Positions 5,547 through 33,096 of a DNA stretch of 33,473 nucleotides are shown piece after piece. The notes under the pieces are model-generated. The model was not told the origin of the DNA and made no database searches. It was given only the letters and a program-made list of their open reading frames with translations. This stretch comes from Chloroflexota bacterium (GTDB lineage Bacteria; Chloroflexota; UBA6077; CF-72): contig JAFAZN010000049.1 in NCBI GenBank assembly GCA_019239775.1, positions 1-33,473 of the forward strand, written 5' to 3'. Within the stretch, counting starts at the first letter, position 1. Each line of letters opens with the position of its first letter. A program made the position numbers and the translations under genes.

Positions 5547-5562
5547 GGTGTGACCCCATTGT

Positions 5563-5568
5563 TAGACT
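5563..5568 (+). promoter_or_regulatory. Candidate -10 box for a leaderless tricorn transcript
   Basis: TAGACT (TANNNT pattern) lies exactly 7 nt before the tricorn ATG, and no Shine-Dalgarno sequence precedes that ATG. This geometry is that of leaderless genes, where transcription begins at the start codon. No good -35 hexamer is visible. Confidence 0.4.
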
Positions 5569-5575
5569 TCGGTTC

Positions 5576-8500
5576 ATGGCTGGTTCCGACCTTGGCTACT
5601 ACCGATTTCCTTCACTGCATGGTGAGGATCTCGTGTTCGCATGCGAAGACGACCTGTGGCGCGTCAGCGCCCGTGGGGGCGTTGCTTATCGCCTGACCGC
5701 GGGGGTCGGCGAGGCCAGTCGGCCGCGGTTCTCGCCGGATGGCAGCAGCATCGCGTTCGTCGGAAGGGAAGAGGGGCCTGCCGAGATCTATGTGATGCCA
5801 GCCGCGGGGGGCCCGTCACAGCGCCTCACGTACGACGGGTCGGCCGCGTCCAGCCTGTCCACCTGGTCGCTCGACGGCACAAAGGTCTACTACGCCAGCG
5901 CGGCGCACCGACCGTTTGCTCGCGAATACTGGCTCAGAGAAGTTCAGGTCGGGGCTTCGACGAAGCCGTCCAGGCAGGTGCCGTGGGGCCCGGCCAGCGC
6001 GATCGCTTTTGGACCAAATGCGGGCCTGGTGCTGGGGCGCAACACGGTGCGCGACCCTGCGCACTGGAAGCGTTACCGCGGCGGCACCGCGGGCACGCTG
6101 TGGGTAGATGCCCGGGGCGAGGGCGAGTTTCGGCCTCTCATTCGCCTCGATGGCAACCTGTCGAGCCCCTGCTGGGTGGACGGTCGGATCTTCTTCCTCT
6201 CGGATCACGAGGGCTACGGCAACGTGTACTCGACGACGCCGGCTGGCGAAGACCTGCGGCGCCACACCGATCACGAGGATTACTACGCGCGCAACCTCAC
6301 GACCGACGGCAAACGTCTCACGTACCACGCGGGTGCGGACATCTTTGTCCTCGATCCGAACGACTCGGCACCAGAGCGGCTGCACATTCGACTGAGTAGC
6401 TCGCGCACCCAGAGGAACAGGCGGTTCGTGTCCGCCGCTCGGTTCCTGCAAAGTACGTCGCTCAGTCCGGACGGGACCGGCCTGGCGGTCAGCTCGCGCG
6501 GCAAGGCCTTCACGTTCCACAACTGGGAGGGCGCCGTCTCGCAACACGGCGAGCCCGACGGTGTTCGCTATCGTCTGCTCACCTGGCTCAACGACCACAA
6601 GCGACTGGTTGCCGCCGCCTCGGATGGCGCGAGCGACCGCGAAACGCTGGTGCTCCTGACGGCGGATGGTTCGGCGCCGCCGCGGCAACTTGCTGATCTC
6701 GACGTCGGACGGGTGGTGGATCTCGAGGTCGCCCCGACGACGAACCACGTGGCAATGGCCAACCATCGCAACGAGCTATTGCTGCTGAACCTGGACGGCG
6801 ACGAGCCCAGCCTGAGGCAGTTGGACCGCAGCTCGTTCGGTCGCATCGAAGGCATGGCCTGGTCCTTCGACAGTCGCTGGCTTGCGTATGGCTTTGCGAA
6901 CACCGCGCAGACCATGGCCATCAAGTTGGCCGAAATCGAGTCTGGCCAAACGACGCAAATCACCAATCCCACGCTGCGCGATCGCAGCCCGTCCTTCGAT
7001 CCGGAGGGCAAGTACCTCTACTTCATCGGTCAGCGCGACTTCGACCCGGTGTACGACGAGCTGCACTTCGATCTGGGTTTCCCGAAGGGCTCACGACCGT
7101 TTGCCATCACGCTGCGCAAGGAGCTGCAGAATCCGTTCATTCCGCGGCCCAAAGCTCCCGAAAGCCAGGAGGCTGCCGCGAAGAAGAAGGCTGAGGCAGA
7201 AGAAGGCCCAGCCGCGCCTCCGCGCATCGAGATCGAGCTCGACGGCATCACCGAGCGCGTGCTCGCCTTCCCGGTGCGCGAGGCGCGCTACGGCCGGATC
7301 GAAGGCATCAAGGGCAAAGTTCTTTTCTCGAGCTACCCGATAGAAGGCACCCGCGGCCGCGATCGAGACGACGACCGCACTCAGCGCGGGCTCCTCGAAT
7401 CCTACGAATTCGAGACCCAGAAGCAGGATCGCCTCGTCGAGGGTGTTACCGATTTTCAGATTGGTCGCGATGGAAAGACGCTGCTGTACCAGTCGGGCGA
7501 TCGGCTGCGCGTGCTCAAGGCAGGGGAGAAGGCCCCCGACAAGAAGGACGATAAGCCTGGTCGCGAGAGTGGCTGGATCGACCTTGGCCGCGTCAAAGTC
7601 TCGATCCAACCAGTCGCCGAGTGGAAGCAGATGTTCCAGGAAGCCTGGCGCCTGCAGCGCGAGCAGTTCTGGACCGAGGACCTGTCAGGCATCGATTGGG
7701 ATGCCGTTCACGCGCTGTATCAGCCCCTGGTTGATCGAATCACCACGCGCTCCGAGTTCTCCGACCTGCTCTGGGAGCTTCAGGGCGAGCTCGGCACGTC
7801 CCACGCCTACGAGATGGGTGGCGAATACCGGCCTGGTCCGAACTACCGCCAGGGCTTTCTCGGCGTCGACTGGGCGTTCGACACCGAAACCAATGCCTAC
7901 AAGATTGGCCACATCATCCGTGGCGACACGTGGGAGCCCGAAACCTCTTCACCGTTGACAGGCCCGGGCCTGGAGGTCCAGGAGGGTGACTACGTCCTCG
8001 CGATTAACGGCCAGCCCCTCGGTCCGGAGGTTACGCCTGCGCAACGCCTGGTGAATCAGGCCGGCAATGAGGTGCTGCTCACCGTTCGCCGCGGTGCAGA
8101 TGGGGAGCCCCGCACCGTCACGGTCAAGGCGCTTGGCGATGAACGGCCTGCGCGCTATCGGGACTGGGTTGAGGCCAACCGGGAGAAGGTGCACATCGCG
8201 ACCGATGGTCGGGTTGGCTACATCCACGTTCCCGACATGGGGCCCGAAGGCTACGCCGAGTTCCATCGGGCGTTCCTGGTGGAGTACGACCGTGACGCGC
8301 TGATTCTGGACGTCCGCGTGAACGGTGGTGGCCATGTCTCTGGCTTGTTGCTGGAGAAGCTTGCTCGTAAGCGAGTCGGCTACGACTTTCCGCGCTGGGC
8401 GGCGCCCAAGCCGTACCCTGACGAATCTCCAACTGGACCGATGGTTGCCCTTACCAACGAGCTCGCCGGCTCGGACGGAGACATCTTCTCGCACACCTTC

Positions 8501-8911
8501 AAGATGATGAAGCTCGGTCCATTGGTGGGTAAGCGGACGTGGGGCGGTGTCATTGGCATTTGGCCGCGGCATCGACTGGTGGATGGGACGGTCACCACGC
8601 AGCCTGAGTTCTCGTTCTTCTTCGACGACGTGGGATGGCGAGTCGAAAACTACGGGACCGACCCGGACATCGAGGTCGACAATGCCCCGCACGACTACGC
8701 GCGTGGGGCTGACCCACAGCTGGACCGCGCAATACAGGCTGCGCTGGAAGAACTGGCCAAACGGCCACCCCACCGTCCGCGACCAACGGACCGACCCTTG
8801 CGGGTTGCGCCGCGCCTGGCGCCGAGGTCCAGGGTCTCAACGGCTGCCCCACCCAACGGCCGCACGGTACCCGAGCCGACTCCCGCGCAAGTGCGCGAGG
8901 CCTCCGACTAG
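5576..8911 (+). CDS. tri: Tricorn protease homologue, S41-type serine peptidase
   Basis: Tricorn is a large cytosolic self-compartmentalising peptidase that trims peptides released by other proteases. The ATG at 5576 gives 1111 residues, very close to Thermoplasma tricorn; the frame is open farther upstream but the early part overlaps acnA. The N-terminal half holds beta-propeller repeats with SPDG motifs. A charged linker (about residues 525-545) follows, then the core domain, a PDZ domain (about 795-850) and the S41 peptidase domain. The catalytic tetrad is present: Ser742-His743 in GTSHAY, nucleophile Ser966 in AGSDGD, and Glu1024 in VENYG, nearly the Thermoplasma numbering (745/746/965/1023). 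The C-terminal 45 or so residues are a Pro/Arg-rich tail, probably disordered. It starts 29 nt after acnA, and a hairpin follows its stop. Confidence 0.95.
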
Positions 8912-15855: not shown

Positions 15856-17100
15856 TTACGCTGCGTATGCTTCGTCGAGAAGTTCGATCACGTGGCGGAC
15901 CTGGGCATTCAGGCCGGCGCGTTGAACGCCGCGATGCAGCTGCATCAAACAGCCGGGGTTGGCGGTGACGATGGTCTCGGCGCCGGTGGCCCTGACGCCA
16001 GCCATCTTCTCGTCCAGGATGCGCGTGGACATCTCGGGCTGGGTCAGCATGTAGAGGCCGGCGCTGCCGCAGCACAGGTCCGCATGCGGCATGTCGCGCA
16101 GCTGCACGCCGGGGATCGCCGCCAGAAGCTCGCGCGGCGCGGCTTTGACACGTTGGGCGTGTACGAGGTGACAGCTCTCCTGCAGCGTGACCGTCCTCGG
16201 CACGGCCCTCTGCGGGGGGACGAGGTCGATGCTGGCCAGGAACTCGGTCACATCGCGCACGAGCGCTGAAAACTCACGCGCTTCTGGCTCTGAGAGCAAT
16301 TCGGCGTACTCCTTCATGGTCGCGCCGCAACCCGCGGAGTTCACGATGATGGCATCCAGGCCACGGCCGAGGAACGCTCGTGTGTTTTGTCGGGCTAACT
16401 CGGCTGCAACGCGCCGTTCGCCGCCGTGCACGTTAAGCGCACCGCAGCACACCTGCGCCTTCGGCACGTGCACCTCGCAGCCATTGATGCGCAGCACGCG
16501 CAGCGTTGCCCAGTGCACGGGTCCGTAGACCAACGGCATCACGCAGCCTGCGAACAGCCCGACACGGTAGCGCAGCCGTCCGATAGCGGGATACACCTCC
16601 CAGCGCGGCAGAAACGGCGCCGGTATCGGCGGCAGCAGCGTCTCCGCCTCCGCGAGCGGTCTTGGCAGCAGGCCGGTGAACCGGACGAGACGTTGCAGCC
16701 CCAACAGTTCGTAGATCTGAAGCGCTCCGACCATTGCGCGAAGACGACCAGGATGTGGAAGGAGCTCTTCGAAGGCGAGCCGCCGAAACACGCGGTCGCG
16801 CCACGAGAGCTGGGCGCGCTCGTAGAGCTGCGCGCGACCGGCTTCCATAATGCGCCCGAAGTGGACGCCGCTCGGGCACACGCTCTCGCAGTTCCGACAG
16901 ACGAGGCAGAGCTCCAGGTGCTCCCGATAGGCGGGCGTGGCGGTGATGCGCCCGTCGTTGAACGCGCCGATCAAGTGGATTCGCCCACGCGGGGACTCGG
17001 CCTCGTAGCCGGTCTGCAGATACGTGGGGCAGTTCGGCAAGCACAGCCCGCAATGGACGCACTGCGCCAGGTCCGCGGGCGACGGGGCTGTTAGATCCAC
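15856..17100 (-). CDS. glcF: Glycolate oxidase iron-sulfur subunit GlcF
   Basis: GlcF carries electrons from the flavin subunit of membrane-associated glycolate (or D-lactate) dehydrogenase. The 414-residue protein has two N-terminal [4Fe-4S] ferredoxin motifs: Cys14/17/20/24 and Cys65/68/71/75. Two CCG domains follow, ending in QVCCGALNVHGGE and HADLCCGSAGLY. The GTG start at 17100 overlaps the end of glcD by 10 bp. No glcE subunit is present, a two-subunit GlcD-GlcF arrangement common outside proteobacteria. D-lactate or D-2-hydroxyglutarate as substrate cannot be excluded. Confidence 0.93.
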   Translation of the reverse strand: MDLTAPSPADLAQCVHCGLCLPNCPTYLQTGYEAESPRGRIHLIGAFNDGRITATPAYREHLELCLVCRNCESVCPSGVHFGRIMEAGRAQLYERAQLSWRDRVFRRLAFEELLPHPGRLRAMVGALQIYELLGLQRLVRFTGLLPRPLAEAETLLPPIPAPFLPRWEVYPAIGRLRYRVGLFAGCVMPLVYGPVHWATLRVLRINGCEVHVPKAQVCCGALNVHGGERRVAAELARQNTRAFLGRGLDAIIVNSAGCGATMKEYAELLSEPEAREFSALVRDVTEFLASIDLVPPQRAVPRTVTLQESCHLVHAQRVKAAPRELLAAIPGVQLRDMPHADLCCGSAGLYMLTQPEMSTRILDEKMAGVRATGAETIVTANPGCLMQLHRGVQRAGLNAQVRHVIELLDEAYAA

Positions 17101-18527
17101 ACGTCCTGAGCCATGGCCGAGATGGCCGCGACTGCCTTCGTGGCTGCAACCTCACCACCCGGTGTTGGCAGCACCTTTCCGGGGTTGAAGTTGCCCGACG
17201 GATCGATCGCGCTACGCACCTTGCCCATGACGCCGAGGTCGTCGGCGCTGAAGATGAGCGGCATATACGCCTGCTTCTCCATCCCGACCCCGTGCTCGCC
17301 AGTGATGGTTCCACCCGCCTCAACGCAGGCGTTGAGCATTTCACGACCGGCGGCCAGAACGCGATCCAGTATTCCCGTTTCGCGGACGTCGAACAGGATC
17401 ATGGGATGCAGGTTGCCGTCGCCGGCGTGGAAAAGATTCGCGATAGGCAGCTCATAGCGTTGCCCAATCTCGATCACGTGGGCGAGGATCCGCGGCAAAC
17501 GCGTCCGAGGCACAACGGCGTCGTGAAGGTAGTAGTTTGGCGCGATACGGCCCATCGCGCTGGCGGCGCCTTTCCGGGCAGCCCACAGGCGAGCGCGATC
17601 TTCGTCTGAAGCTGCCAGGCGGATGTCCAGCGCACCGCTCGCGCGACACACTTCGTCCACCACTGCGGCCTGCGCTTCGACCTGCTCCAGTAAGCCGTCG
17701 ACCTCGACCAGGAGCACGGCGCCAGCCTCCGGTGGGTAGCCGGCATGGAAAGCAGCTTCGATCGCAGAGAGAGCCAGCTTGTCCATCATCTCCAGGGCCG
17801 ATGGCACGAGGCCGCGCCCGATCAGCGCCGAGACGGCTTCGCTGGCCGCGTCCACTGAAGCGAAGATTGCCAGTGCCGTGCGCACAGCCTCGGGCAAGCG
17901 CATCAAGCGCACAGTGACTTCCGTGACGACGCCCATCGTGCCTTCAGAGCCCACCATCACGCCTGTGAGGTCCAGGCCTAATGCCTCGGGGATGTTTCCG
18001 CCGAGTCGGACCACCTTTCCGTCCTGCAGCACAACCTCGAGCCCGAGGATGTGGTTGACCGTTGCGCCCAGTGACAGGCAGTGTGGTCCACCGGCGTTGT
18101 TGGCAACGTTTCCGCCGATGGTGCTGGCCTTCTGGCTCGACGGGTCCGGTGCGAAGAACAGCCCGAATCGCTCAGTTGCCTTGGAGAGGTCCAGATTTAC
18201 GACCCCTGGTTGGACGACCGCGCAGCGGTTCGCCTGATCGATCTCCAGGATCCGGTTCATGCGCGCCATGGAGATCACGAGGCCGCCGCGTACAGGCACC
18301 GCGCCGCCGGCGATCCCCGTGCCCGCGCCACGCGCCACGATCGGGACACCGGCCGAATGCGCTTCCCGCACCAGGAGTTGCACATCCGCGGTCGAGCGCG
18401 GCAGCGCGACCAGGTCCGGCATCGAGCGGTCCAGACCGTAGTCGTACTCGTACATCACGGTGTCTTCGACCGCCTCGAAGACCGAATCCGGTCCGAGCGC
18501 ATCGCGCAACCGCTGCGCGAGGCTCAT
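17091..18527 (-). CDS. glcD: Glycolate oxidase FAD-binding subunit GlcD
   Basis: This catalytic flavoprotein oxidises glycolate (or another 2-hydroxyacid) and is 478 residues, typical of GlcD. The PCMH-type FAD domain shows PIVARGAGTGIAGGAVP, ASTIGGNVANNAGG and VGSEGTMGVVTEV. The C-terminal FAD-linked oxidase domain contains ANLFHAGDGNLHP and TGEHGVGMEKQAYM. Its ATG overlaps the stop of the upstream aminotransferase gene in ATGA, and its 3' end overlaps glcF, so the three genes form one minus-strand operon. The neighbouring aminotransferase would be a natural consumer of glyoxylate, which supports glycolate as substrate, but this is contextual. Confidence 0.93.
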   Translation of the reverse strand: MSLAQRLRDALGPDSVFEAVEDTVMYEYDYGLDRSMPDLVALPRSTADVQLLVREAHSAGVPIVARGAGTGIAGGAVPVRGGLVISMARMNRILEIDQANRCAVVQPGVVNLDLSKATERFGLFFAPDPSSQKASTIGGNVANNAGGPHCLSLGATVNHILGLEVVLQDGKVVRLGGNIPEALGLDLTGVMVGSEGTMGVVTEVTVRLMRLPEAVRTALAIFASVDAASEAVSALIGRGLVPSALEMMDKLALSAIEAAFHAGYPPEAGAVLLVEVDGLLEQVEAQAAVVDEVCRASGALDIRLAASDEDRARLWAARKGAASAMGRIAPNYYLHDAVVPRTRLPRILAHVIEIGQRYELPIANLFHAGDGNLHPMILFDVRETGILDRVLAAGREMLNACVEAGGTITGEHGVGMEKQAYMPLIFSADDLGVMGKVRSAIDPSGNFNPGKVLPTPGGEVAATKAVAAISAMAQDVWI

Positions 18528-19606
18528 GCAGGTGTGGCTGCGGCCACGTAGCGCTTGAGCGCCTGCGCGGCGCGGTCGACATCTTGGACGGTGTTGTACA
18601 CGTGGGTTGACAGGCGTACGCTGCCCGCCCGCACGGCTGCTTTGACCCCAGCCGCGGCTAATTCCACCCGAACGGTTTCGGCGTCCTCCACCGGAACGGA
18701 CACGATCGTGCTCTCAGGTTCGTGTAATCCGAGCTGGTGTGCGAGTCGACGCGCCAGCGCGCGAGGTTCGTTCAGGACACCGGCAGCTTGCCAGTCCGCC
18801 AGCAGCGAAAGTGATTCGGCCGCGCCGGCCCAGGCCAACCACGCCAGCGAAACGTCGAATCGGGCGGCACTTGGCGCCTGGTCGAGTGGGCCACCGTAAT
18901 AGACGTGGTACGGATCACGCGCGCTGCGCCAGTTGGCCAACCACGCGGGGATTCGGTCCCATTGCTCTTTCGTGACAGAGAGGAACGCCACACCACGGGG
19001 ACTCAACAAGTGCTTGTATGCGGCGCAGACGACGAAGTCCGCGCGCGGATCCACGCCGACGAACGGGACCGCGTGGGTGGCATCGATCAGCGTTCTCGCG
19101 CCCACGCGTTGTGCTTCATCCAGCACTTCCCGCTGCCGTGCACTTTCGCCCGATTGCGAGCGCACCAGGCTGAACGCCACCAACGTGGTGCTTGGCCGAA
19201 TGTTGTCCAGGAGGTCGTCGAACGGAACCTCGCGCACCGTCACGCCATGGTGGTGTGCAGCAACGAGCAACGGAAACAGCACGGAGTTGAACTCCTCATA
19301 CGGAACCACGACCTCGTCGGTTTCCGTGAGGTTTGCCGCGACAAGCCCGACGCCGACAGAAGCTGACGGGATCAGCGCGATGCGCTGGGCCTCGACACCA
19401 ATGAGCGAGGCGAAGGCGGTGCGGCACGCCTCACCGCGAACGTCCCATTCCGTAACCCAGTCCGCCGTCCCGCGCTGCCAACGCTCCAGGGCGCGCTGCA
19501 TGACCTCGACGGTCGGGCGCGGCGGCAGCCCGTAGGTCGCCGAGTCCAGGTACGTACAACCAGGTTCTGGCGCAAATAACGCGCGAATGTCGTCCGGCAC
19601 CGCCAC
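18524..19606 (-). CDS. Class V PLP-dependent aminotransferase
   Basis: This 360-residue fold-type I enzyme belongs to the class V group (cysteine desulfurase, isopenicillin-N epimerase and serine-glyoxylate aminotransferase relatives). It has TYLDSATYGLPPR near the N-terminus, the cofactor Asp in IDATHAVPF and the Schiff-base Lys in CAAYKHLLSPRG. It lacks a clear desulfurase active-site cysteine loop. It heads an operon with glcD and glcF, overlapping glcD by 4 bp, so an amino donor:glyoxylate transamination to glycine is attractive but unproven. The GTG start at 19606 has no Shine-Dalgarno; TACCAT lies 7 nt upstream, as expected for a leaderless start. Confidence 0.87.
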   Translation of the reverse strand: MAVPDDIRALFAPEPGCTYLDSATYGLPPRPTVEVMQRALERWQRGTADWVTEWDVRGEACRTAFASLIGVEAQRIALIPSASVGVGLVAANLTETDEVVVPYEEFNSVLFPLLVAAHHHGVTVREVPFDDLLDNIRPSTTLVAFSLVRSQSGESARQREVLDEAQRVGARTLIDATHAVPFVGVDPRADFVVCAAYKHLLSPRGVAFLSVTKEQWDRIPAWLANWRSARDPYHVYYGGPLDQAPSAARFDVSLAWLAWAGAAESLSLLADWQAAGVLNEPRALARRLAHQLGLHEPESTIVSVPVEDAETVRVELAAAGVKAAVRAGSVRLSTHVYNTVQDVDRAAQALKRYVAAATPA

Positions 19607-19685: not shown

Positions 19686-21011
19686 TCAGGCTCCTTCGAG
19701 GTAGCGCGCGAGCTCCCAGCTGCTGATGTGACGTCCGAAGGCCAGCCATTCCTGCTCCTTGGCGGTCAGGAAGCGTTCGAATATTGGCTGGCCCAATGCG
19801 TCGCGCACGACGGGATCCCAGTTCAGTTCCTCGAGCGCTTCGCCGAGCGTTGCTGGCAGCGGATCGGCCACCTCGGCACCCTCGACATCCAGCTCCTGAG
19901 GTGCCTCGTCAGCAGGTTCGGGCAGCGGCAGCCGATTGCGAATGCCGTCCAGACCGGTCTTGAGCATGGCCGCGAGCGCAAGGTATGGGTTGCAGCTCGG
20001 ATCGGGCGCACGCAGCTCCAGTCGCGTCCCGCGGCCGGCCGCGGGCTCGGGCACACGCAGCAGCGCGCCGCGATGAATTCGCGCCCAGGTGACTCGGGCT
20101 GGCGCTTCAGCGCCACCGGACAGACGTTTGTACGAGTTGACCAGCGGCGCAATCACTGCTGAAAGTCCACGCGCATGCGCCAGTTGGCCAGCCACGAATT
20201 GGGCACCTACCTCGGACAGTGAGTACCGTTCCGCCGCATCGAAAAATGCGTCGTCGCCCGACGAGGGATCCAAAAGCAGCTGCGTAATGTGCATGCCCGA
20301 GCCGGGCGCGTCTTCCAGCGGCTTGGGCATGAAGCTCACGAGCATGCGGCCGCGCCGCGCCAGCGACCGCAACGCCCACTTCAGGGCGACGACCGCGTCG
20401 GCGGCTTCGAGTGCGCCCAGCTCGGCGATGTCGATCTCGTGCTGTCCGGGCCCGACTTCGGCGTGCGACGCCTCGACCTCCACGCCGAACCCGCGTAGCG
20501 CTTCGATTGCCTCCCGGCACAGATTCGCGGCACGCACTTCTTGAATCTCGAAATAGCCACTCCGATCCACCGGCGACAGCGAACGTGCAGCTTTGCCGGC
20601 GAGGTCGGGGTCTTCGAAGACGAAGAATTCAACCTCGATGCTGACGCGGTACTCGAAGCCTGGATAAAACTCGCGTGCTTCGGCCAGGACCGACTTGAGC
20701 GCGTGACGCGGATCGGCGGCAAACGGCGCGCCACCAGGCAGATGCACGTCGCAGATCAAGCGGGCGGTCGGTGTGGATTCCCAGGGCACGATTGCGAACG
20801 TATCGACGTCCGGTCGCAGGAACAGGTCGCTTTCGGCCGTGCGGGCCAGCCCTTCAACAGACGAGCCGTCGAACCAGGCGCCATGCTCGAGGATTCGCTC
20901 GAGCCTGCTGGATGGGATCGTCAGACTCTTGATGGCGCCGGGCACATCGGTGAACTGGAGGTGCACGACCTCGATGCCCGCGTCTTGCGCGCGTTGGACG
21001 ATGGATGTCAC
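19686..21011 (-). CDS. glnA: Glutamine synthetase, type I, GSI-alpha-like
   Basis: The enzyme makes glutamine from glutamate, ammonia and ATP. Its 441 residues match the short GSI-alpha form. The active site is complete: FDGSS at 48-52, metal ligands Glu126 and Glu128, Glu185 and Glu192 in EVGPGQHEID, His241 in GSGMH, NSYKRL and RLELRAPDPSCNPYLA. There is no adenylylation tyrosine motif: the region reads NRLPLPEPADE, so GlnE control is not expected. Arg57 in EGLAR aligns with the Bacillus arginine tied to glutamine feedback. The GTG start overlaps the kinase stop (GTGA) with a GGGGG-type ribosome-binding site 5 nt upstream. It is the last gene of a permease-PP2C-kinase-glnA operon, an unusual setting. 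Confidence 0.94.
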   Translation of the reverse strand: MTSIVQRAQDAGIEVVHLQFTDVPGAIKSLTIPSSRLERILEHGAWFDGSSVEGLARTAESDLFLRPDVDTFAIVPWESTPTARLICDVHLPGGAPFAADPRHALKSVLAEAREFYPGFEYRVSIEVEFFVFEDPDLAGKAARSLSPVDRSGYFEIQEVRAANLCREAIEALRGFGVEVEASHAEVGPGQHEIDIAELGALEAADAVVALKWALRSLARRGRMLVSFMPKPLEDAPGSGMHITQLLLDPSSGDDAFFDAAERYSLSEVGAQFVAGQLAHARGLSAVIAPLVNSYKRLSGGAEAPARVTWARIHRGALLRVPEPAAGRGTRLELRAPDPSCNPYLALAAMLKTGLDGIRNRLPLPEPADEAPQELDVEGAEVADPLPATLGEALEELNWDPVVRDALGQPIFERFLTAKEQEWLAFGRHISSWELARYLEGA

Positions 21012-22024
21012 GACGGCCCCCTTGCAGTGTGCGCCAACTGCGCAATGATGCCGATCACAGCCAGAAGGAGGATCGCTCCAATCACGACGGCCGCATTGAC
21101 CACGCGTTCGCGGGAGAGGCGTCCAGGCCTCGAGGACTCGGACGGATACTGGTTGGGAACGACGACGTCGTCAAGATGAAGCAGATCGTCACGTAGCGCA
21201 GCCATCGACGCGTATCGCTCCGAGGGTTCGCGACGCAGCGTCCGCCACACGACTGCCTCGAGTGACGGCGGCAACTCAGGCCGTTTTCGGCGTAACAACG
21301 GCGCGTCAGTGGTGACGCGCTGACTCATCACCGCCAGGGGACTGTCGCCGTGGTAGGGCACGTTGCCCGTCAGCATCTCGAAGAGCATCACGCCCAACGC
21401 ATAGATGTCCGTACGTGCGTCACCGCGATCGCCCTGGACCTGCTCAGGCGCCATGTAATCCGGCGTTCCAAAGCCGGACGTCAGCCGTCTGAAGGTGAGC
21501 CTCCGCGCGCCCTGCAGCAGCGCGATCCCGAAGTCGACGAGTTTCACCGTCCCGTCGGTTTCGATCAGGATGTTCTCAGGTTTCAGGTCGCGGTGCACCA
21601 CACCGTGCTCGTGGCAGTACTGCAGGGCATCAGCCAGTTGCACCGCGATGCGAACGGCTTCGTCGGGCGGCAGTGGCGCGTTCTGGCGGAGGTATTCGCG
21701 CAGCAACGTGCCGTCGACAAATTCGAGGACGAGGTACGGCGCCACCCCATCTTCCAGCCGACCTTCGTCGAGCAGCTGCTGAATATTGGGATGGTGCAGG
21801 CGTTTGCCGATCTCGAGTTCGCGCTGATACCGGCTGTAGGTCGACGGATCGCCAATGAGGCTGGTGAACGGCACCTTGAGCACGACGAGGCGTCCACTGG
21901 CACGCTCACGCGCTTTGTACGCGTCGTTCATGCCGCCCTGGCCAAGAGTCTCCAGGATGTCGTACTTGTTGTTGACGGTCTCGCCCGCCTGGTAGCGCAT
22001 GGTGCCGATGTGGGCGTAGCTCAT
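21008..22024 (-). CDS. Membrane-anchored Ser/Thr protein kinase (Hanks type)
   Basis: The 338-residue protein has a full cytoplasmic kinase domain (about 20-280) and one transmembrane helix (about 309-331) with a tail of only 7 residues, so it has no extracellular PASTA-type sensor. Catalytic elements are present: glycine-rich loop GQGGMNDAY (28-36), Lys50, Glu69 as probable helix-C partner, HRDLKPEN (144-151) and DFG (164-166), followed by GTPDYMAPEQ. Ala replaces the usual Val in the loop. It starts 2 nt after the PP2C gene and overlaps glnA by 4 nt. The phosphatase next door is the expected antagonist; the permease or glutamine synthetase are candidate substrates by context only. Confidence 0.94.
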   Translation of the reverse strand: MSYAHIGTMRYQAGETVNNKYDILETLGQGGMNDAYKARERASGRLVVLKVPFTSLIGDPSTYSRYQRELEIGKRLHHPNIQQLLDEGRLEDGVAPYLVLEFVDGTLLREYLRQNAPLPPDEAVRIAVQLADALQYCHEHGVVHRDLKPENILIETDGTVKLVDFGIALLQGARRLTFRRLTSGFGTPDYMAPEQVQGDRGDARTDIYALGVMLFEMLTGNVPYHGDSPLAVMSQRVTTDAPLLRRKRPELPPSLEAVVWRTLRREPSERYASMAALRDDLLHLDDVVVPNQYPSESSRPGRLSRERVVNAAVVIGAILLLAVIGIIAQLAHTARGPS

Positions 22025-22026
22025 GT

Positions 22027-22848
22027 TTAATCCACGCCCCGTTGTCGGAAGATACTGGAAAGCCAGCCGTTGCTTCTTTCAGGACTCGCGGCATCGACCG
22101 AAACCACCCGAATCACTTGTGCGCTGACGTTGTCCTGGCAGTCCCGCTCCAGGGCCATATCGATCAGCGTGCGTGCGGCAGCCTCAGGTGCGTTGCCCGA
22201 GAGAACCTCGCAGAGCTCTTCGTCTTCGATCTCAGACCAGAGGCCATCGCTACATAGCAAGAACTGGTCGTCGGCCTGGATGGGGTGGCGCACATAATCC
22301 GGCCGCGGGATGAGGCGGCTTCCGAGGGTGCGGGTGAGGCTGCTTCGGCCGGGATGGTCCTTCACCTTCTCGGGCTTCAGAATGCGCATCCGGACCAGCT
22401 CGGCGGCCTCGGAGTGGTCGGAAGTGAGCTGATTCAGCCGGCCATCACGCCAGTGGTAGACCCGTGTATCGCCGATGTGGGCAACGTAGGCCTGCGCACC
22501 GGCCAGCGCAATTGCCGATAGGGTCGTCTCCATCGAGCGATATTCGGGATTGCGATGCGTCAGCTCGTGGATACGCAGGTTTGCGGCCTGAACCGCCTGG
22601 CGCAGCGCTGGCTCGATACGCGTGTGGTTCGACCGTGAGTAGTACTCCTCGCCGAAACGTGCAACAGCTGTAGAACTGGCGACTTCACCGGCAGCGTGGC
22701 CGCCGAGTCCATCGGCGACCACGTAGAGATAGCCCTTGCGCTGAAGCGCGAGAGCATCGGGTGGCGCGAAGCACCCGATGCTGTCCTCGTTTGTTTCCCG
22801 ATGCGGTCCCGCGTCAGTGAGCCCGCATGCCTCGAGCTCGAGCCCCAA
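22027..22848 (-). CDS. PP2C-family Ser/Thr protein phosphatase
   Basis: This 273-residue metal-dependent phosphatase resembles PstP/PrpC/Stp. Conserved metal and phosphate motifs are RETNEDS (around 18-23), VVADGLGGHAAGE (43-55, Asp46), HIGDTRVY, LLCSDGL (Asp201) and QDNVSA (Asp239). No transmembrane helix is seen. The start is TTG at 22848, preceded by AGGA at 6 nt; it lies 20 nt after the permease gene. Placed directly before a kinase gene, it would reverse that kinase's phosphorylation, as in many bacterial kinase-phosphatase pairs. Confidence 0.94.
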   Translation of the reverse strand: MGLELEACGLTDAGPHRETNEDSIGCFAPPDALALQRKGYLYVVADGLGGHAAGEVASSTAVARFGEEYYSRSNHTRIEPALRQAVQAANLRIHELTHRNPEYRSMETTLSAIALAGAQAYVAHIGDTRVYHWRDGRLNQLTSDHSEAAELVRMRILKPEKVKDHPGRSSLTRTLGSRLIPRPDYVRHPIQADDQFLLCSDGLWSEIEDEELCEVLSGNAPEAAARTLIDMALERDCQDNVSAQVIRVVSVDAASPERSNGWLSSIFRQRGVD

Positions 22849-22868
22849 GAGAATCCTGAGGCTTCAGC

Positions 22869-24419
22869 TCAGCTCGCGCCCTTGGGTGCGGCGACCAGCG
22901 ATCGACCCGTTCGACGGTTGTTCACCACGATGTACGCCACGCTGGCGATCAACCACAGCGCGGCGATCCCAATGGCCATGAGCGACTCGGTCTGACTGTC
23001 GCCACCACCAATGAAGCCAACTCCAAGAATCACGACGAGCAGCAAGACGTTCGCCAGCAAGCCGAGGCCTGGAATGAGCAGGTGCTTGACGAAGTTGAAG
23101 TCGGGCCGGGATGCAAAGGCGATGATCGTCCACAGGCAGGTCAGGCCGTACAGAACAAACGTACCGAAGTTGGATGCCAGAGTGATGCCGGTCAGCGTCA
23201 CTACCGAGATGACACCGATCACGCCTATGACAGCCGAGACGACAACCATGGCGACAACCGCCATGTGTGGCGTTAGAAAACCTCCATGCAGCAAGCCCAG
23301 CGGCTCGGGCATTTCTGCATCCTGCGCCATCGCGAACGTAATGCGTACGCCTGTGTTCATGGCCGACAGGGTGGTGCCGAGAATCGCCAGGGCAACCGTG
23401 ATCGCCGTGATTACCATCAAGCCGAAGCCGATGCCGCCGAGGCTGTTGCCAATAACTTGAATGAGGTCACCCATGGGCGCGCCCGAGGCAGCCACCGCGT
23501 CGAGACCCGTGACAGGGTTGTTGTTGGCATCCGTACCCGCTAGTGACTGACCGATGGAGTAGTTCGCGGCGAAGTACTCGATCAGGTAGGCAAACAGGCC
23601 TTGAATGACGAGCGCGATGATGACCGCGCGCGGGACATCGCGCTTCGGGTTCTTGGCTTCCGCAGCGAACGCGGTGCACGATTCGAACCCGACCAGGATC
23701 AGGATCGCGATCGTCGCCTGCATCAGCGTGTTGAGAAGATCCTTCGGAAAGAGGACTGCCGATGCCGATGGCCAGACGAATTCAGTGTGGTCCGGGTTGG
23801 CGAGGCGGTACCAGATCGCGCCAACTGAGAACAACACCAGCGCGGTCAACTGGATGACGTTGATAATCAGGGAGGTCATCGTCGAGCCGCTGACGCCACG
23901 GTAGGCGATGTAGCCAACAAGAACGGCGAACAGTACGGCAATAACCATCTCAGGCACCGTGCCGATGTTCAGCCCGAACTGACCGAGCAGGTACTGAATC
24001 AGAATCGCCATGAAGGCGACCATTACGCCTGGGTAGACCCAGTAGAACAGGTGCGCTGCCCAGCCGGTAGCGAGCTTGGCAAGACGTCCCCACCGATGGT
24101 GGCGGCTCTCCTCCTTATCCATGAACGCCTTCTCGGCGAAGTAATAGGCCGACGCCGTACCTGCCTCGGGGTAGACCCGCGCCAGCTCCGAATAGGACAG
24201 CGCGGTAAAGAATGCCAGGACAAGGGCGAAGACGATGCCTGGCCACATGTCCAGGGCCGTCGAAGCGGTACCTCCTGGGACCGTCTGCGCAGCCTGGACC
24301 TGCAGCGTGATCCACAGAAACGCTCCAGGCGCGATCAGCGCCATGGCGTTGACTGTCACGCCAGTCAGCCCAAGCGTAGGGCGCATACCTGTGCTGTTCG
24401 CGGGACTCTCCACAGCCAC
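22869..24419 (-). CDS. APC-superfamily amino acid permease
   Basis: This 516-residue secondary transporter has about 12 hydrophobic segments and the APC hallmark in the first helix (TVNAMALIAPGAFLW). FTALSYSELARVYPEAG and the helix-6 region ILVGFESCTAFAAEAKNPKRDVPRA are also typical. A hydrophilic loop between helices 2 and 3 is rich in charge (MDKEESRHHRWG). The substrate is not deducible; amino acids, amines or polyamines are all possible. The start is GTG at 24419, with GGAG 9 nt upstream. It is the first gene of the operon ending in glutamine synthetase, which suggests a nitrogenous substrate. Confidence 0.92.
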   Translation of the reverse strand: MAVESPANSTGMRPTLGLTGVTVNAMALIAPGAFLWITLQVQAAQTVPGGTASTALDMWPGIVFALVLAFFTALSYSELARVYPEAGTASAYYFAEKAFMDKEESRHHRWGRLAKLATGWAAHLFYWVYPGVMVAFMAILIQYLLGQFGLNIGTVPEMVIAVLFAVLVGYIAYRGVSGSTMTSLIINVIQLTALVLFSVGAIWYRLANPDHTEFVWPSASAVLFPKDLLNTLMQATIAILILVGFESCTAFAAEAKNPKRDVPRAVIIALVIQGLFAYLIEYFAANYSIGQSLAGTDANNNPVTGLDAVAASGAPMGDLIQVIGNSLGGIGFGLMVITAITVALAILGTTLSAMNTGVRITFAMAQDAEMPEPLGLLHGGFLTPHMAVVAMVVVSAVIGVIGVISVVTLTGITLASNFGTFVLYGLTCLWTIIAFASRPDFNFVKHLLIPGLGLLANVLLLVVILGVGFIGGGDSQTESLMAIGIAALWLIASVAYIVVNNRRTGRSLVAAPKGAS

Positions 24420-28680: not shown

Positions 28681-29522
28681 TTTGTTGACAATGGGAAGTC
28701 TGCCGGCGTGACGCGATTGGTCTTTTCGCGCGCTGCATCGACGATGACGGCGAACGCTTGGGGTTGATCCAGGTGCACGGTGTGTCCCGCGTCGGGCACC
28801 ACGGAGACCCGGGCGTGTTGGAACAGCTGCGCCATCCGCTGTGCAATCGCCGCGTACCGCGTATCCGCCGCGCCTACGATCAGGTGCACGGGCACGCTGA
28901 GCTCCGAGAGCCTGGACCAGAGTGGCTTCTGCGCACCTGCGCCCATGCCGCGGAGGCTGTTGGCCAGGCCGACGGGATTGTTGCGCAAGCGTAGCTCGCG
29001 CTGCTGCTGACGCACTCCCGCGGACACGTGTGGCTGTAACGCCAGCAGCGGTTGTGCCTCCCACTCGGCGACAAAGGCGTCGATGCCGTTCGCCAGGATT
29101 CGCTGCGCCAGCGCTTCGTCGCTCAGCACGCGTCGGTGGCGCTCGGGCGGGTCTTCCAGCCCGGGTGAGGCGCTCTCCAGGATCAACGTCTGTACTCGGC
29201 TGGGCGCGTGCACCGCCAAGTGCAGGGCCGCCCGACCGCCCATCGAGTAGCCGAGCACGTTTGCGCGCTGGAGACCAAGGTGATCCAGAAGAGCGGCGAG
29301 GTCCCGCGTGCACCAGTCCAGCGTGTACCGGCTCGCATCAGCAGGTGACGCCGATTGGCCGTGGCCAATCAGGTCCACGGCGATCAGCCGCGCGTCGCGC
29401 GCAAGATTTGAACGAATGCCGTCCCAACTGCGGATGCTGCCCGTGAAACCGTGCAGCAGCAGCAACGGCGCACCCGCGCCTTCAATTTCGACGTGGAAGT
29501 CCAGCCCGTTGAGTTCAGGCAA
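28677..29522 (-). CDS. menH: SHCHC synthase MenH (alpha/beta hydrolase)
   Basis: MenH eliminates pyruvate from SEPHCHC to form SHCHC in menaquinone synthesis. The frame is open far into menD, but homology starts at about 29522, where a TTG overlaps the menD stop by 8 bp; this gives 281 residues, normal for MenH. Motifs are the oxyanion segment LLLHGFTGS, the nucleophile elbow GYSMGG (Ser93), IVGAADTRY and the catalytic His in DAGHTVHLDQP. No strong ribosome-binding site is visible, as expected for termination-reinitiation. Context after menF and menD makes the identification firm, as alpha/beta hydrolases are otherwise hard to assign. Confidence 0.9.
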   Translation of the reverse strand: MPELNGLDFHVEIEGAGAPLLLLHGFTGSIRSWDGIRSNLARDARLIAVDLIGHGQSASPADASRYTLDWCTRDLAALLDHLGLQRANVLGYSMGGRAALHLAVHAPSRVQTLILESASPGLEDPPERHRRVLSDEALAQRILANGIDAFVAEWEAQPLLALQPHVSAGVRQQQRELRLRNNPVGLANSLRGMGAGAQKPLWSRLSELSVPVHLIVGAADTRYAAIAQRMAQLFQHARVSVVPDAGHTVHLDQPQAFAVIVDAAREKTNRVTPADFPLSTN

Positions 29523-31245
29523 TGCCAGCTGGCTGCAGAGCTTCGGCCACGGCGCGCCACACCGCGCGGTGCTGGGCCACGTTGCGTGTGCGTTCCGTCG
29601 GCACCTCAATGACCTGGAGACCGCCGGCCTGCAGGCCACGAGTAACCGCATCCGTGAACTGCGACCAGTTGCCGATGCGCTGGAAACGGCCGCCATGCCC
29701 CTCGACGAATGGTCGGAAGTTGAGGCCGTGGGGTGTGCCAAACAGCAGCTCGAAGTGCTCGGGCACCGCCTCAGCCTGCGGTAAGAACGAGAAAATGCCG
29801 CCGCCGTCATTGTTTATCAGCACCACCAGTAGGTCGAGACCATGGCGGCGCGCAGCGAGCAACCCGTTCAAATCGTGGTAGAAGCTGAGGTCGCCGATCA
29901 CGAGCACCACACGCCCATGCCCCGCAGCGCTGGCGCCGAACGCGCTGGAAACAACGCCGTCAATTCCATTGGCGCCTCGATTACTCAGGCAGCGCAAACG
30001 TTTTTCCGATCGCGCTAGGAACGTGTCCAGGTCGCGTATGGGCATGCTGTTGCCGGCGAAGACGACCGCATCATCAGGCAACAGCTCGCCGAGCAGGCTG
30101 ATGACCTTGCCCTCGAAAAGCTCATGCGTTTCAGACAGGTGTGCATCGATGGCTCGTCGCGCGGCGGTGTTCACGCGCTGCCACTGCGCGGCCCACTCCG
30201 TTTCGCCATGCTCCGTGAGACTGCCAGCAAGCGCTTCGCACAGCAGGCTCGGATCGGCGTGGACCACGTCGGTCGCCGCGTTGCTCGGGTCACGCCAGCC
30301 GGCGGGATCGACCACGATCCGTCGCGCCTGGCGCTGGGCCTCCAGGTACTGCTGCAACGGCTTGGAGGTGGGCACCGCGCCGAATCGCATCACCAGCTCG
30401 AGCTCGGGGCCGAAGTCACCGCGTAGAAACGCATCGTAAGTATCGACGACTAGCGAGCGGTCGCGGTCGCCACACCTCACGCCCGAGAGCGCGTCTGCCA
30501 GAACCGGGTAGCCCGCCCGGGCGGCGAGGCATGTGACCGCATCTGCGAAATTGGGGTCGGCGTCCTCGGGACCGACCACGATGATCCCGCGCGGTGAACG
30601 CTCCATCGCGTCAGTGAGGTTGGCGACGGTCTCGACCGATGGCGCCAGGCGCGCGTGGTGGACGGCAACCGGTGAAATTGTCTCGACGTGCGGCGTCGGC
30701 GCCGGAATCAGCGGTTCGCGGAACGGCCAGTTCAGGTGCACGGCCCCGGCTGGCGCCGCCTGCGCGGTTGCCACAGCGCGAGCCGCCAGGGTCGCCGCGA
30801 ACTGACTCTGCTCAGGGCTGCCGTCCGGTTCCGGCAAGTCGAAGAACCATTTCGCGTGCGAGCCGAACAAGCGTAGCTGGTCGATCGTTTGCGCCGCACC
30901 GTTGTCGCGGAGCTCGTGCGGTCGATCGCCTGTCAGCACCACCAGCGGTACGCGCGCGAGATTGGCTTCCACCACTGCTGGAAAGAAGTTAGCCGCAGCC
31001 GTGCCCGAGGTCGCCAGCAACGCAACCGGCTGGCGGAGCGCTTTGGCGAGCCCAAGGCCGAAGTACGCGGCCGAGCGCTCATCGAGGTGCATCCACAGCT
31101 TGATGTCGCGACGTCGTGCGAATTCGATCGCAAGCGGTGTGGAACGCGACCCGGGACAGGCGGAGACGTGACGAATCCCGCTTGCCACAAGGCCCTCGAC
31201 GAACGTCGCCACCACATCGTGCAGGGCCTGCGCCGACGTCGTCAC
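29515..31245 (-). CDS. menD: SEPHCHC synthase MenD
   Basis: This thiamine-diphosphate enzyme joins isochorismate and 2-oxoglutarate to make SEPHCHC, the first committed step to menaquinone. The 576-residue protein shows CPGSRSTPLAIEFARR, catalytic Glu56 in HLDERSAAYFGLGLAKA, and LLATSGTAAANFFPAVVEA. TGDRPHELRDNGAAQTIDQ and the C-terminal ThDP site GDLSFYHDLNGLL with INNDGGGIFSFLPQ follow. The GTG start overlaps the menF stop (GTGA). Motifs and length are normal. Confidence 0.97.
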   Translation of the reverse strand: MTTSAQALHDVVATFVEGLVASGIRHVSACPGSRSTPLAIEFARRRDIKLWMHLDERSAAYFGLGLAKALRQPVALLATSGTAAANFFPAVVEANLARVPLVVLTGDRPHELRDNGAAQTIDQLRLFGSHAKWFFDLPEPDGSPEQSQFAATLAARAVATAQAAPAGAVHLNWPFREPLIPAPTPHVETISPVAVHHARLAPSVETVANLTDAMERSPRGIIVVGPEDADPNFADAVTCLAARAGYPVLADALSGVRCGDRDRSLVVDTYDAFLRGDFGPELELVMRFGAVPTSKPLQQYLEAQRQARRIVVDPAGWRDPSNAATDVVHADPSLLCEALAGSLTEHGETEWAAQWQRVNTAARRAIDAHLSETHELFEGKVISLLGELLPDDAVVFAGNSMPIRDLDTFLARSEKRLRCLSNRGANGIDGVVSSAFGASAAGHGRVVLVIGDLSFYHDLNGLLAARRHGLDLLVVLINNDGGGIFSFLPQAEAVPEHFELLFGTPHGLNFRPFVEGHGGRFQRIGNWSQFTDAVTRGLQAGGLQVIEVPTERTRNVAQHRAVWRAVAEALQPAGIA

Positions 31246-32495
31246 GCTTCGGCGCCGACCGCGGCCAACATCGGTCGCAGCTTCCAGCCGAGCTCGGCGT
31301 ACTCCGTTTCGGGATCCGAGTCGCCGACGATCCCACAGCCCGCGAACAGCGTGGCGGTGCCATCGCGTAGAAGCGCCGAGCGCAGACCTACAACGAACTC
31401 GCCCTGGCCCCGAGCGTCCACCCAGCCGAGCGGCGCGGCATACCAGCCGCGATCGAGCTCTTCGCGCTCGCGGATCACCGCCATGGCGTTTGCACGCGGG
31501 TAACCCCCCACGGCTGGCGTCGGGTGCAGCCCTGTTACCAGGTCGAGCACGCCGAAGCCCGGCCGGACCTGCGCCCGAATCGGCGTGATCAGGTGGTGGA
31601 GGTTGGGCAGCGTGTGGATGCGCGGCTCGGCATGGGCGATCACGCGCGTGCTGAAGGGCGAGAGATCTTCGCGAAGCGCCTCGACGACGACGGCGTGCTC
31701 GGTGCGCTCTTTCGGGTCGTGCAGCAAGCTCTCGGCGAGCTGGGCGTCACGCTCAGGGGTCGCGCCGCGCGGACCGGAGCCGGCCAGGGCCATCGTCGTC
31801 GCGGTGCCGTTGTGCAGCGCGACAAGGCGCTCCGGCGTTGCACCCACGAAGCAGGCATCGCCCATGCCGATGGCGAAGATGGTGCAGGTCGGGTACGTGG
31901 CGGCGAGCCTGCGGAGGACTGTTTCCAGTGGAGCCCGGGCCCGAACCTGCTGCGTGCGAGCCAGCACGACTTTACGTACGCCGAGCTCACCGGTCTTGAT
32001 GCCGCTCGCCACCTCTCGGACCAGGGTCCGCCAACCCTCTGGGGACAGGCCAAGCCGTGGTGGATCGAGCGCCCTGTCCTCTGATGGCCAATCGGGCTGC
32101 GTCACCCGGTTTGTAGTCAGCGTCGCAGCGCCAGGCTCGATGCGCCACAAGCGCTCTGGCAGCACCATGCGCGCGGCGCCGCCAAAGCCGGACCACAGTG
32201 CAGTTGGGGTTGCCTCGGCATCGAAACGCAAGCTACCCAGGAGGAGCGGGTCAACTGGCCCGTCGATCGCGGCATCCGCGACTAGAGCGCGCCAGGCCTG
32301 GGCCATATCGTGCGTCAGTGTGCTCGCGCGACCAGTACCAACGAGCGCTTCACCGCTGGACGGCCGCAGCCACAACCCGCGGGTCGCCTCGCCTGCAGCA
32401 GCCGCGAACACCTCGATCGGATCGACGGCCGCTACCGGTCGCGTGCTGCTCACCAACTGCGGCTCGCGCCGCGTGTGCTGCAGGTTAGTCGCCAT
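31242..32495 (-). CDS. menF: Isochorismate synthase MenF
   Basis: The enzyme converts chorismate to isochorismate for menaquinone. The frame is open to 32555, but the ATG at 32495 has GGGAG 9 nt upstream and gives 417 residues; it overlaps tetR by 11 bp. The chorismate-binding domain occupies the C-terminal half, with VRKVVLART, FVGATPERLV, LAGSGPRGATPERD and LPNLHHLITPI. HPTPAVGGYPRANA, GWYAAPLGWVDARGQGEF and FAGCGIVGDSDPETEYAE follow. Context with menD and menH selects the menaquinone over the siderophore role. Confidence 0.95.
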   Translation of the reverse strand: MATNLQHTRREPQLVSSTRPVAAVDPIEVFAAAAGEATRGLWLRPSSGEALVGTGRASTLTHDMAQAWRALVADAAIDGPVDPLLLGSLRFDAEATPTALWSGFGGAARMVLPERLWRIEPGAATLTTNRVTQPDWPSEDRALDPPRLGLSPEGWRTLVREVASGIKTGELGVRKVVLARTQQVRARAPLETVLRRLAATYPTCTIFAIGMGDACFVGATPERLVALHNGTATTMALAGSGPRGATPERDAQLAESLLHDPKERTEHAVVVEALREDLSPFSTRVIAHAEPRIHTLPNLHHLITPIRAQVRPGFGVLDLVTGLHPTPAVGGYPRANAMAVIREREELDRGWYAAPLGWVDARGQGEFVVGLRSALLRDGTATLFAGCGIVGDSDPETEYAELGWKLRPMLAAVGAEA

Positions 32496-33096
32496 GTAAC
32501 GCGGCTCCCGCCTGGATGCCCCGCAGGAGCAGGCGCTGCACCGTTGGGTACGCATCTTCCAGGCGACCTGGTCGTTCTGAGAGTGCCCAGTGTGTCACCA
32601 CTTCGTTCACCGCACCGAACCACGCCGTCGCGGCAACACTCGTGTCGAGCGGTGGAATCGCGCCTTGCGCCACCGCGTCGTCGAGATGAACGCGGATCAG
32701 GTCCGCAAAGTCCGCGCGAAGCTGAATCATGCGTGCGTTGAATTCGGGGCCAGCGCCGAGCGCCTCCACCAGGAACAGGCGCGCCAGCCGGCGGTGGCTG
32801 CCGAACGTTTCGAGCACAACGTGGAGCGCCGCCTCTGCGCGTTCGATCGGATCCTGCCTGGTGGCGACGGCGGCTTCGACGCGCTCGCGCAGGATGTTGG
32901 CCAGTCGATCCAATAGCGCCAGAAAGATGGCTTGCTTATTCGGGAAGTGGAAGTAGACACCGCCCTTGGAGGTCTCCGCTTCGGCGGCGATCTCGTCAAC
33001 CAGCGTGCCGTGATAGCCCTTGGTCGAAAACACGGCAACAGCGGCATCGAGGATGCGCTGGTGGCGCTGCTGGCTGCGCGCTTGCTCGATCGGCAT
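32485..33096 (-). CDS. TetR-family regulator, first gene of the men operon
   Basis: This 203-residue repressor has an N-terminal helix-turn-helix domain (about 13-60) with RILDAAVAVFSTKGYHGTLVDEIAAEA and TSKGGVYFHFPNKQAIF, and an all-helical ligand domain. The C-terminus overlaps menF by 11 bp, so it is co-transcribed with menF-menD-menH. An inverted repeat lies 29-62 nt upstream of its ATG and probably binds it. TetR ligands are often lipophilic, so control by a quinone-pathway compound or acyl-CoA is conceivable; the sequence does not say which. Confidence 0.93.
   Translation of the reverse strand: MPIEQARSQQRHQRILDAAVAVFSTKGYHGTLVDEIAAEAETSKGGVYFHFPNKQAIFLALLDRLANILRERVEAAVATRQDPIERAEAALHVVLETFGSHRRLARLFLVEALGAGPEFNARMIQLRADFADLIRVHLDDAVAQGAIPPLDTSVAATAWFGAVNEVVTHWALSERPGRLEDAYPTVQRLLLRGIQAGAALHGD

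Follow-up and report, generated by a model that had tools for sequence, protein, structure and literature searches.

Conserved linkage between a nitrogen transporter and a tail-anchored Ser/Thr kinase points to a possible phosphorylation switch in Chloroflexota

We analysed a 33.5 kb contig (the window, meaning the whole stretch of DNA at its full length) from a 7.2 Mb Chloroflexota metagenome-assembled genome (MAG), in which four tightly packed minus-strand genes encode an amino-acid permease, a PP2C phosphatase, a Hanks-type Ser/Thr kinase and a type I glutamine synthetase (GS). We think it rather probable that in this cassette a nitrogen transporter works as a pair with its own, dedicated kinase, a tail-anchored Ser/Thr enzyme, the transporter serving as sensor, as substrate or as both, and the phosphatase reversing the modification. 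The case is a comparative one and draws on gene linkage, kinase orthology, co-occurrence, exchanges of partner genes, domain anatomy and the conservation of catalytic residues. The open reading frames are separated by gaps of 20, 2 and -4 bp, the start of the GS gene overlapping the stop of the kinase gene by 4 bp, and both their coordinates and their Pfam families agree with the packing described in the initial annotation of this DNA.

That annotation had set conserved linkage in relatives beforehand as the test of its proposal, and the gene order is indeed kept in many genomes from several phyla. A search with the GS recovered the order permease, PP2C, Ser/Thr kinase, GS in many Chloroflexota, in Anaerolineae, Ignavibacteriota and Bacteroidota, and in a Holophagaceae MAG, the linked proteins being about 40-86% identical across phyla. 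Searching with the permease gave 40 matches in 400 Chloroflexota genomes and only 4 and 1 matches in two other phyla (about 300 genomes each), which indicates that the module is rare outside the Chloroflexota. We mapped the regions surrounding a permease set of 48 loci from 48 genomes. The kinase adjoins the permease in 44 of these loci, and in the other four the contig ends no more than 501 bp beyond the permease. For three of those four (G233, G250 and G264) the kinase was located at or near the end of another contig, which in G233 also carries PP2C and a permease end; the kinase is followed by GltB in G264 and by a PPP phosphatase in G250. As a control, we inspected 40 loci of other amino acid-polyamine-organocation (APC) permeases, mostly from the same genomes, and found a kinase neighbour at one: there, in the genome of the window itself, a second kinase stands next to a KimA potassium transporter. 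A reciprocal control with 20 loci of other kinases gave the operon-type permease as a neighbour in none and PP2C in one. Conserved linkage, together with the permease and kinase control loci, rejects a chance neighbourhood. At the KimA locus itself (L192, G000:C339:4000-12794, positions 3017-8795), the kinase follows KimA, is 48% identical to the operon kinase and is cut by the contig end; ahead of the pair come genes for a KdpD-like sensor kinase and for a response regulator.

The kinase follows the permease across genomes as well as along the chromosome. With an ortholog threshold of E up to 1e-68, the kinase was found in 46 of the 400 Chloroflexota genomes, namely in 38 of the 40 that bear the permease but in only 8 of the 360 that lack it; related genomes are not independent, and we give these co-occurrences as counts. 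One permease-bearing genome, G222, has a shortened kinase copy adjoining its permease. The window genome has only nine kinases above the Pfam cut-off, and in each of ten genomes (2-69 kinases listed in each, two of them with 43 and 69) it is the permease-adjacent kinase that matches the window kinase best. In the kinase tree, the permease-linked kinases and those linked to the ammonium transporter Amt form one clade with 99% support, apart from 16 other kinases, and the Amt-linked kinases nest inside the permease-linked clade. The permease tree and the kinase tree recover the same five groups, and in both of them a set from Ignavibacteria and Acidobacteriota joins the Chloroflexota loci; these matching groups and placements suggest that the cassette has been transferred as one unit. 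The GS tree divides the operon GS into two or three clades, which lie among the Chloroflexota sequences.

Around this pair, the partner genes are exchanged. Across the 48 permease loci the phosphatase is a PP2C in 29 and a PPP-type metallophosphatase in 7, the latter replacing PP2C in several members of family f30. The assimilation genes are GS in 25 loci, GltB in 10 (one locus having both), phosphoenolpyruvate (PEP) carboxylase in 11 and Amt in 6, and nine permease loci without GS carry glutamate synthase downstream of the kinase. In f30, whose genomes measure 3-14 Mb, the permease-kinase pair has glutamate synthase beside it in place of GS, and its clusters further include Amt, PEP carboxylase, the PPP-type phosphatase, a GltC-like LysR regulator and a protein with an ACT domain. 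The transporter can be replaced too. Eight genomes have the kinase and lack the permease. Seven of them are members of family f56, each with the kinase directly downstream of an ammonium transporter, and the Pfam family Ammonium_transp was confirmed in the two f56 proteins tested; in the eighth genome, G215, the locus is cut at a contig end. The comparison of these loci shows one exchange of the kinase's transporter partner, between permease and Amt. Since GS is optional and PP2C replaceable, the constant core consists of a nitrogen transporter and a tail-anchored kinase without an ectodomain. In at least two f56 genomes, a gene for a pyridoxal-phosphate-dependent (TrpB-like) enzyme comes after the Amt-kinase pair (L286:8222-9604 and L285:3299-4666).

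These patterns bear on a more sceptical explanation, in which the locus is a plain nitrogen-metabolism neighbourhood that carries along a general kinase/phosphatase pair with no specific functional link. Genes for PP2C and Ser/Thr kinases do often share an operon (PMC6213207), but the control permeases and kinases without such linkage, the orthology of the kinase, its co-occurrence with the permease in the 400 genomes, the conservation across phyla and the independent partner swaps make this explanation highly improbable.

The kinase itself consists of a catalytic domain and a membrane anchor. It matches Pfam Pkinase with 181.7 bits, its AlphaFold2 model (predicted local distance difference test, pLDDT, 87.3) is nearest in fold to the PknB kinase domain 5u94 (Foldseek, 38% identity), and the catalytic Lys50, HRDLKPEN, DFG and APE are invariant or nearly so across the family. 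Pfam found Pkinase-type domains only, and no TPR. As the initial annotation had described, there is a short membrane anchor and no sensor domain: a single C-terminal helix ends in a tail of a few residues, an ectodomain is absent in 44 of 44 aligned relatives, and all of these share the same C-terminal ending. Against the NCBIfam model NF033483 the kinase scores 304 bits (cut-off 450), and it has no extracellular PASTA repeats. The window PP2C scores 212.7 bits with the Stp1 model NF033484 (cut-off 230). For the PPP-type phosphatase of f30, the solved structure that matches best belongs to a protein-tyrosine phosphatase and not to ApaH. One cluster contains a second kinase copy (L171:9551-10547) that is apparently broken by a frameshift or stop.

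The permease matches Pfam AA_permease with 67.3 bits (gathering score 24.6), and its AlphaFold2 model (pLDDT 84.5) has as its nearest folds the bacterial homologue of cationic amino acid transporters (CAT) 6f34/5oqt, LAT1 and AdiC, with a TM-score to 6f34 of 0.71/0.80 that places it in the APC fold. The 48 relatives show it to be a member of a distinct subfamily that nearly always adjoins the kinase. Residues N24-A27, A30-P31 and A33-W36 are invariant among them, and Thr15, just before the first transmembrane helix (TM1), is present in 46 of the 48; from this conservation we infer that Thr15 may be a phosphosite. TM1 has APGAF where APC proteins commonly have a motif of the G-S/T-G type. In G028, the permease gene (L035/L120) contains an in-frame TAG, which reflects either a sequencing error or a pseudogene.

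A kinase that has no ectodomain and yet is tied to a swappable nitrogen transporter is most simply read as receiving its signal from the transporter, as having the transporter for its substrate, or both. We therefore weighed a second explanation, in which the permease is purely a substrate and an intracellular signal (e.g. glutamine, 2-oxoglutarate or energy status) drives the kinase, which in turn gates transport. The dedicated phosphatase close by, the conserved cytoplasmic Thr15 and the cytoplasmic position of the kinase domain would all fit such an arrangement. Nevertheless, we hold it to be unlikely, as the kinase has no cytoplasmic sensor domain, and Amt substitutes for the permease with no evident shared phosphosite, although no detailed comparison of the two transporters was made.

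A third explanation makes GS the main substrate: its activity would be switched by kinase and phosphatase instead of by adenylylation, and the permease would do no more than supply substrate. The operon copy probably functions as a GS, being the only full-length one found in two f41 genomes, G109 and G179 (MAGs of 95% and 89% completeness). The window GS most resembles enzymes of the GSI-alpha type (for example 7tdp and 7tf6), conserves the metal-, ATP- and glutamate-binding motifs with the catalytic residues in place, and matches NCBIfam TIGR00653 over its full length with a divergent score of 372.4 bits (cut-off 429). The Tyr adenylylation motif is missing, as had been annotated: the corresponding loop has no Tyr, which is ordinary for the GSI-alpha-like class. 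In favour of GS as the main substrate, its gene is often the last of the operon, several loci showing a 4-bp overlap, the operon copy is the only full-length GS in the two f41 genomes, and Bacillus subtilis GlnA is listed as a PrkC substrate in a review (PMC6213207, Table 1). However, 23 of the 48 permease loci have no GS although the kinase persists, GS is divergently oriented in one locus, and the f56 kinase is paired with Amt and no GS. Moreover, a comparison with 97 other GS sequences found no Ser/Thr that is conserved in the operon GS and rare elsewhere, which leaves the idea that GS is controlled directly, at a conserved site, unsupported. We regard GS as the main substrate as quite unlikely. 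Hence, of the dedicated phosphorylation switch on transporter and/or GS that the initial annotation proposed, the tie to the transporter and the linkage across phyla stand, and the privileged position of GS as a target, with GS in 25 of 48 loci and no specific Ser/Thr, does not. A gamma-glutamyl-amine synthetase function for the enzyme is disfavoured by the conserved catalytic residues and by its being the sole full-length GS in f41, although the clade of the window protein has lost the flap Tyr (GYEAP becoming G-x-EAP). Three Bacteroidota loci (L182, L183 and L184) have a second GS, of GSI-beta-like type, within the operon or behind it; a gene for a BBP2 (OmpL-like) porin lies immediately upstream.

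Returning to the transporter-kinase coupling that we favour, the adjacent transporter (the APC permease here, Amt in f56) would be the membrane sensor of the kinase, its direct substrate, or both; the adjacent phosphatase (PP2C, or the PPP type in part of f30) would undo the phosphorylation; and the output would be nitrogen uptake coordinated with the co-encoded enzymes, that is, GS here and, in f30, glutamate synthase together with PEP carboxylase and Amt. Several points weigh against this account. We infer, from sequences, the transporter-kinase contact, the phosphorylated protein, the ligand and the way in which regulation runs. Co-transcription would also be expected if kinase and permease merely served one pathway. 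The permease-bearing genome G036 has no kinase ortholog above the threshold and is probably the single exception to the linkage. Tail-anchored kinase paralogs occur that do not adjoin a nitrogen transporter (L262, G000:C439; L263, G040:C34; L293, G002:C6), the first of them flanked by major facilitator superfamily (MFS) and MacB-like genes. Finally, the motif around Thr15 resembles the [KR]-x-L-G with which TM1 of APC proteins ordinarily begins, so that this residue is only weakly suggestive. A bolder extension, which we put forward tentatively and with some doubt, is a family of bacterial Ser/Thr kinases signalled by transceptors, in which the unfused permease or Amt would be the receptor, the kinase the transducer, PP2C or PPP the off-switch, and GS or glutamate synthase (GOGAT) together with the transporter the targets.

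Full-text searches of open-access papers found no description of this gene set, in keeping with the initial annotation, to which no characterised system of this layout was known. Among the nearest likenesses is the PknG-GlnX-GlnH system of Actinobacteria, in which a Ser/Thr kinase operon uses a distinct membrane protein to connect amino acids outside the cell with glutamate metabolism (PMC6069109, PMC9769921). There, however, the sensor is a solute-binding lipoprotein with a four-helix-bundle (4HB) membrane protein, whereas the partner in the cassette is a transporter; PknG is soluble, has TPR and often rubredoxin domains and acts on GarA/OdhI, whereas the window kinase is anchored by its tail and has no further domain; and the cassette cluster includes a phosphatase and GS/GOGAT. 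The neighbours of the window kinase are the permease, PP2C and GS rather than glnX and glnH. A transporter supplies the sensing module of a kinase for nitrogen or amino acids in the ammonium sensor Ks-Amt5 of Kuenenia (PMC5764959) and in CbrA of Pseudomonas (PMC13022988), but in both it is fused to a histidine kinase, while the cassette has a separate Ser/Thr kinase gene beside the transporter. In the yeast SPS sensor, Ssy1 works with Yck1/2, casein kinases anchored in the membrane, and PP2A acts against these (PMC12958826), and thus an APC-superfamily protein, a membrane-anchored Ser/Thr kinase and a phosphatase share one amino-acid sensing circuit; that system is eukaryotic and operates through Ptr3/Ssy5 proteolysis and transcription, and we claim no homology of the kinase arrangement. 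The PrkC/PrpC and Stk1/Stp1 pairs likewise place PP2C beside a PknB-like kinase, but the cassette kinase has no PASTA domains and is tied to a nitrogen transporter and GS/GOGAT instead of cell-wall genes. None of the PknG-GlnX-GlnH, Ks-Amt5, CbrA and Ssy1 systems shares the composition of the cassette.

The features of the operon are listed in Table 1. Downstream, glycolate-oxidase and aminotransferase genes (15856-19606) were considered as parts of the system and rejected, as they are not retained in relatives beyond the genus. Rfam gave no match to a riboswitch or other RNA, either in the window or in the seven related loci searched. The menaquinone biosynthesis genes at 29515-32555 (isochorismate synthase, MenD) are unrelated to the operon.

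Table 1. Operon features, in window coordinates.
Feature	Position	Strand	Basis
APC-superfamily amino-acid permease, 516 aa, first operon gene	22869..24419	-	Pfam AA_permease
Permease conserved N-terminus and TM1, residues 12-36	24312..24386	-	M[KR]xTLxLTG[VL]T[VI]NAMALIAPGAFLW, relatives' alignment
PP2C (PPM) family Ser/Thr protein phosphatase, 273 aa	22027..22848	-	Pfam PP2C_2/PP2C
Hanks-type Ser/Thr kinase with C-terminal TM anchor, without sensor domain, 338 aa	21008..22024	-	Pfam Pkinase
Kinase catalytic domain	21185..21964	-	Pfam Pkinase match 1-261 of 263
Kinase single C-terminal TM helix, residues 302-334	21023..21121	-	AlphaFold2 helix
Type I (GSI-alpha-like) glutamine synthetase, 441 aa, last operon gene	19686..21011	-	Pfam Gln-synt_N and Gln-synt_C

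Taken at this strength, the cassette appears to be a bacterial switch, so far undescribed, in which reversible protein phosphorylation links the uptake of nitrogen to its assimilation. The signal that activates bacterial Ser/Thr kinases is acknowledged as an open question in PMC6069109, and a subfamily of sensor-less kinases tied to a nitrogen transporter in several phyla names a candidate receptor, a candidate substrate and a candidate output. If the transceptor-signalled kinase family is real, it would be the Ser/Thr-phosphorylation counterpart of the transporter-histidine kinases. The finding points toward a phosphorylation-based control of nitrogen in the Chloroflexota and Ignavibacteria.

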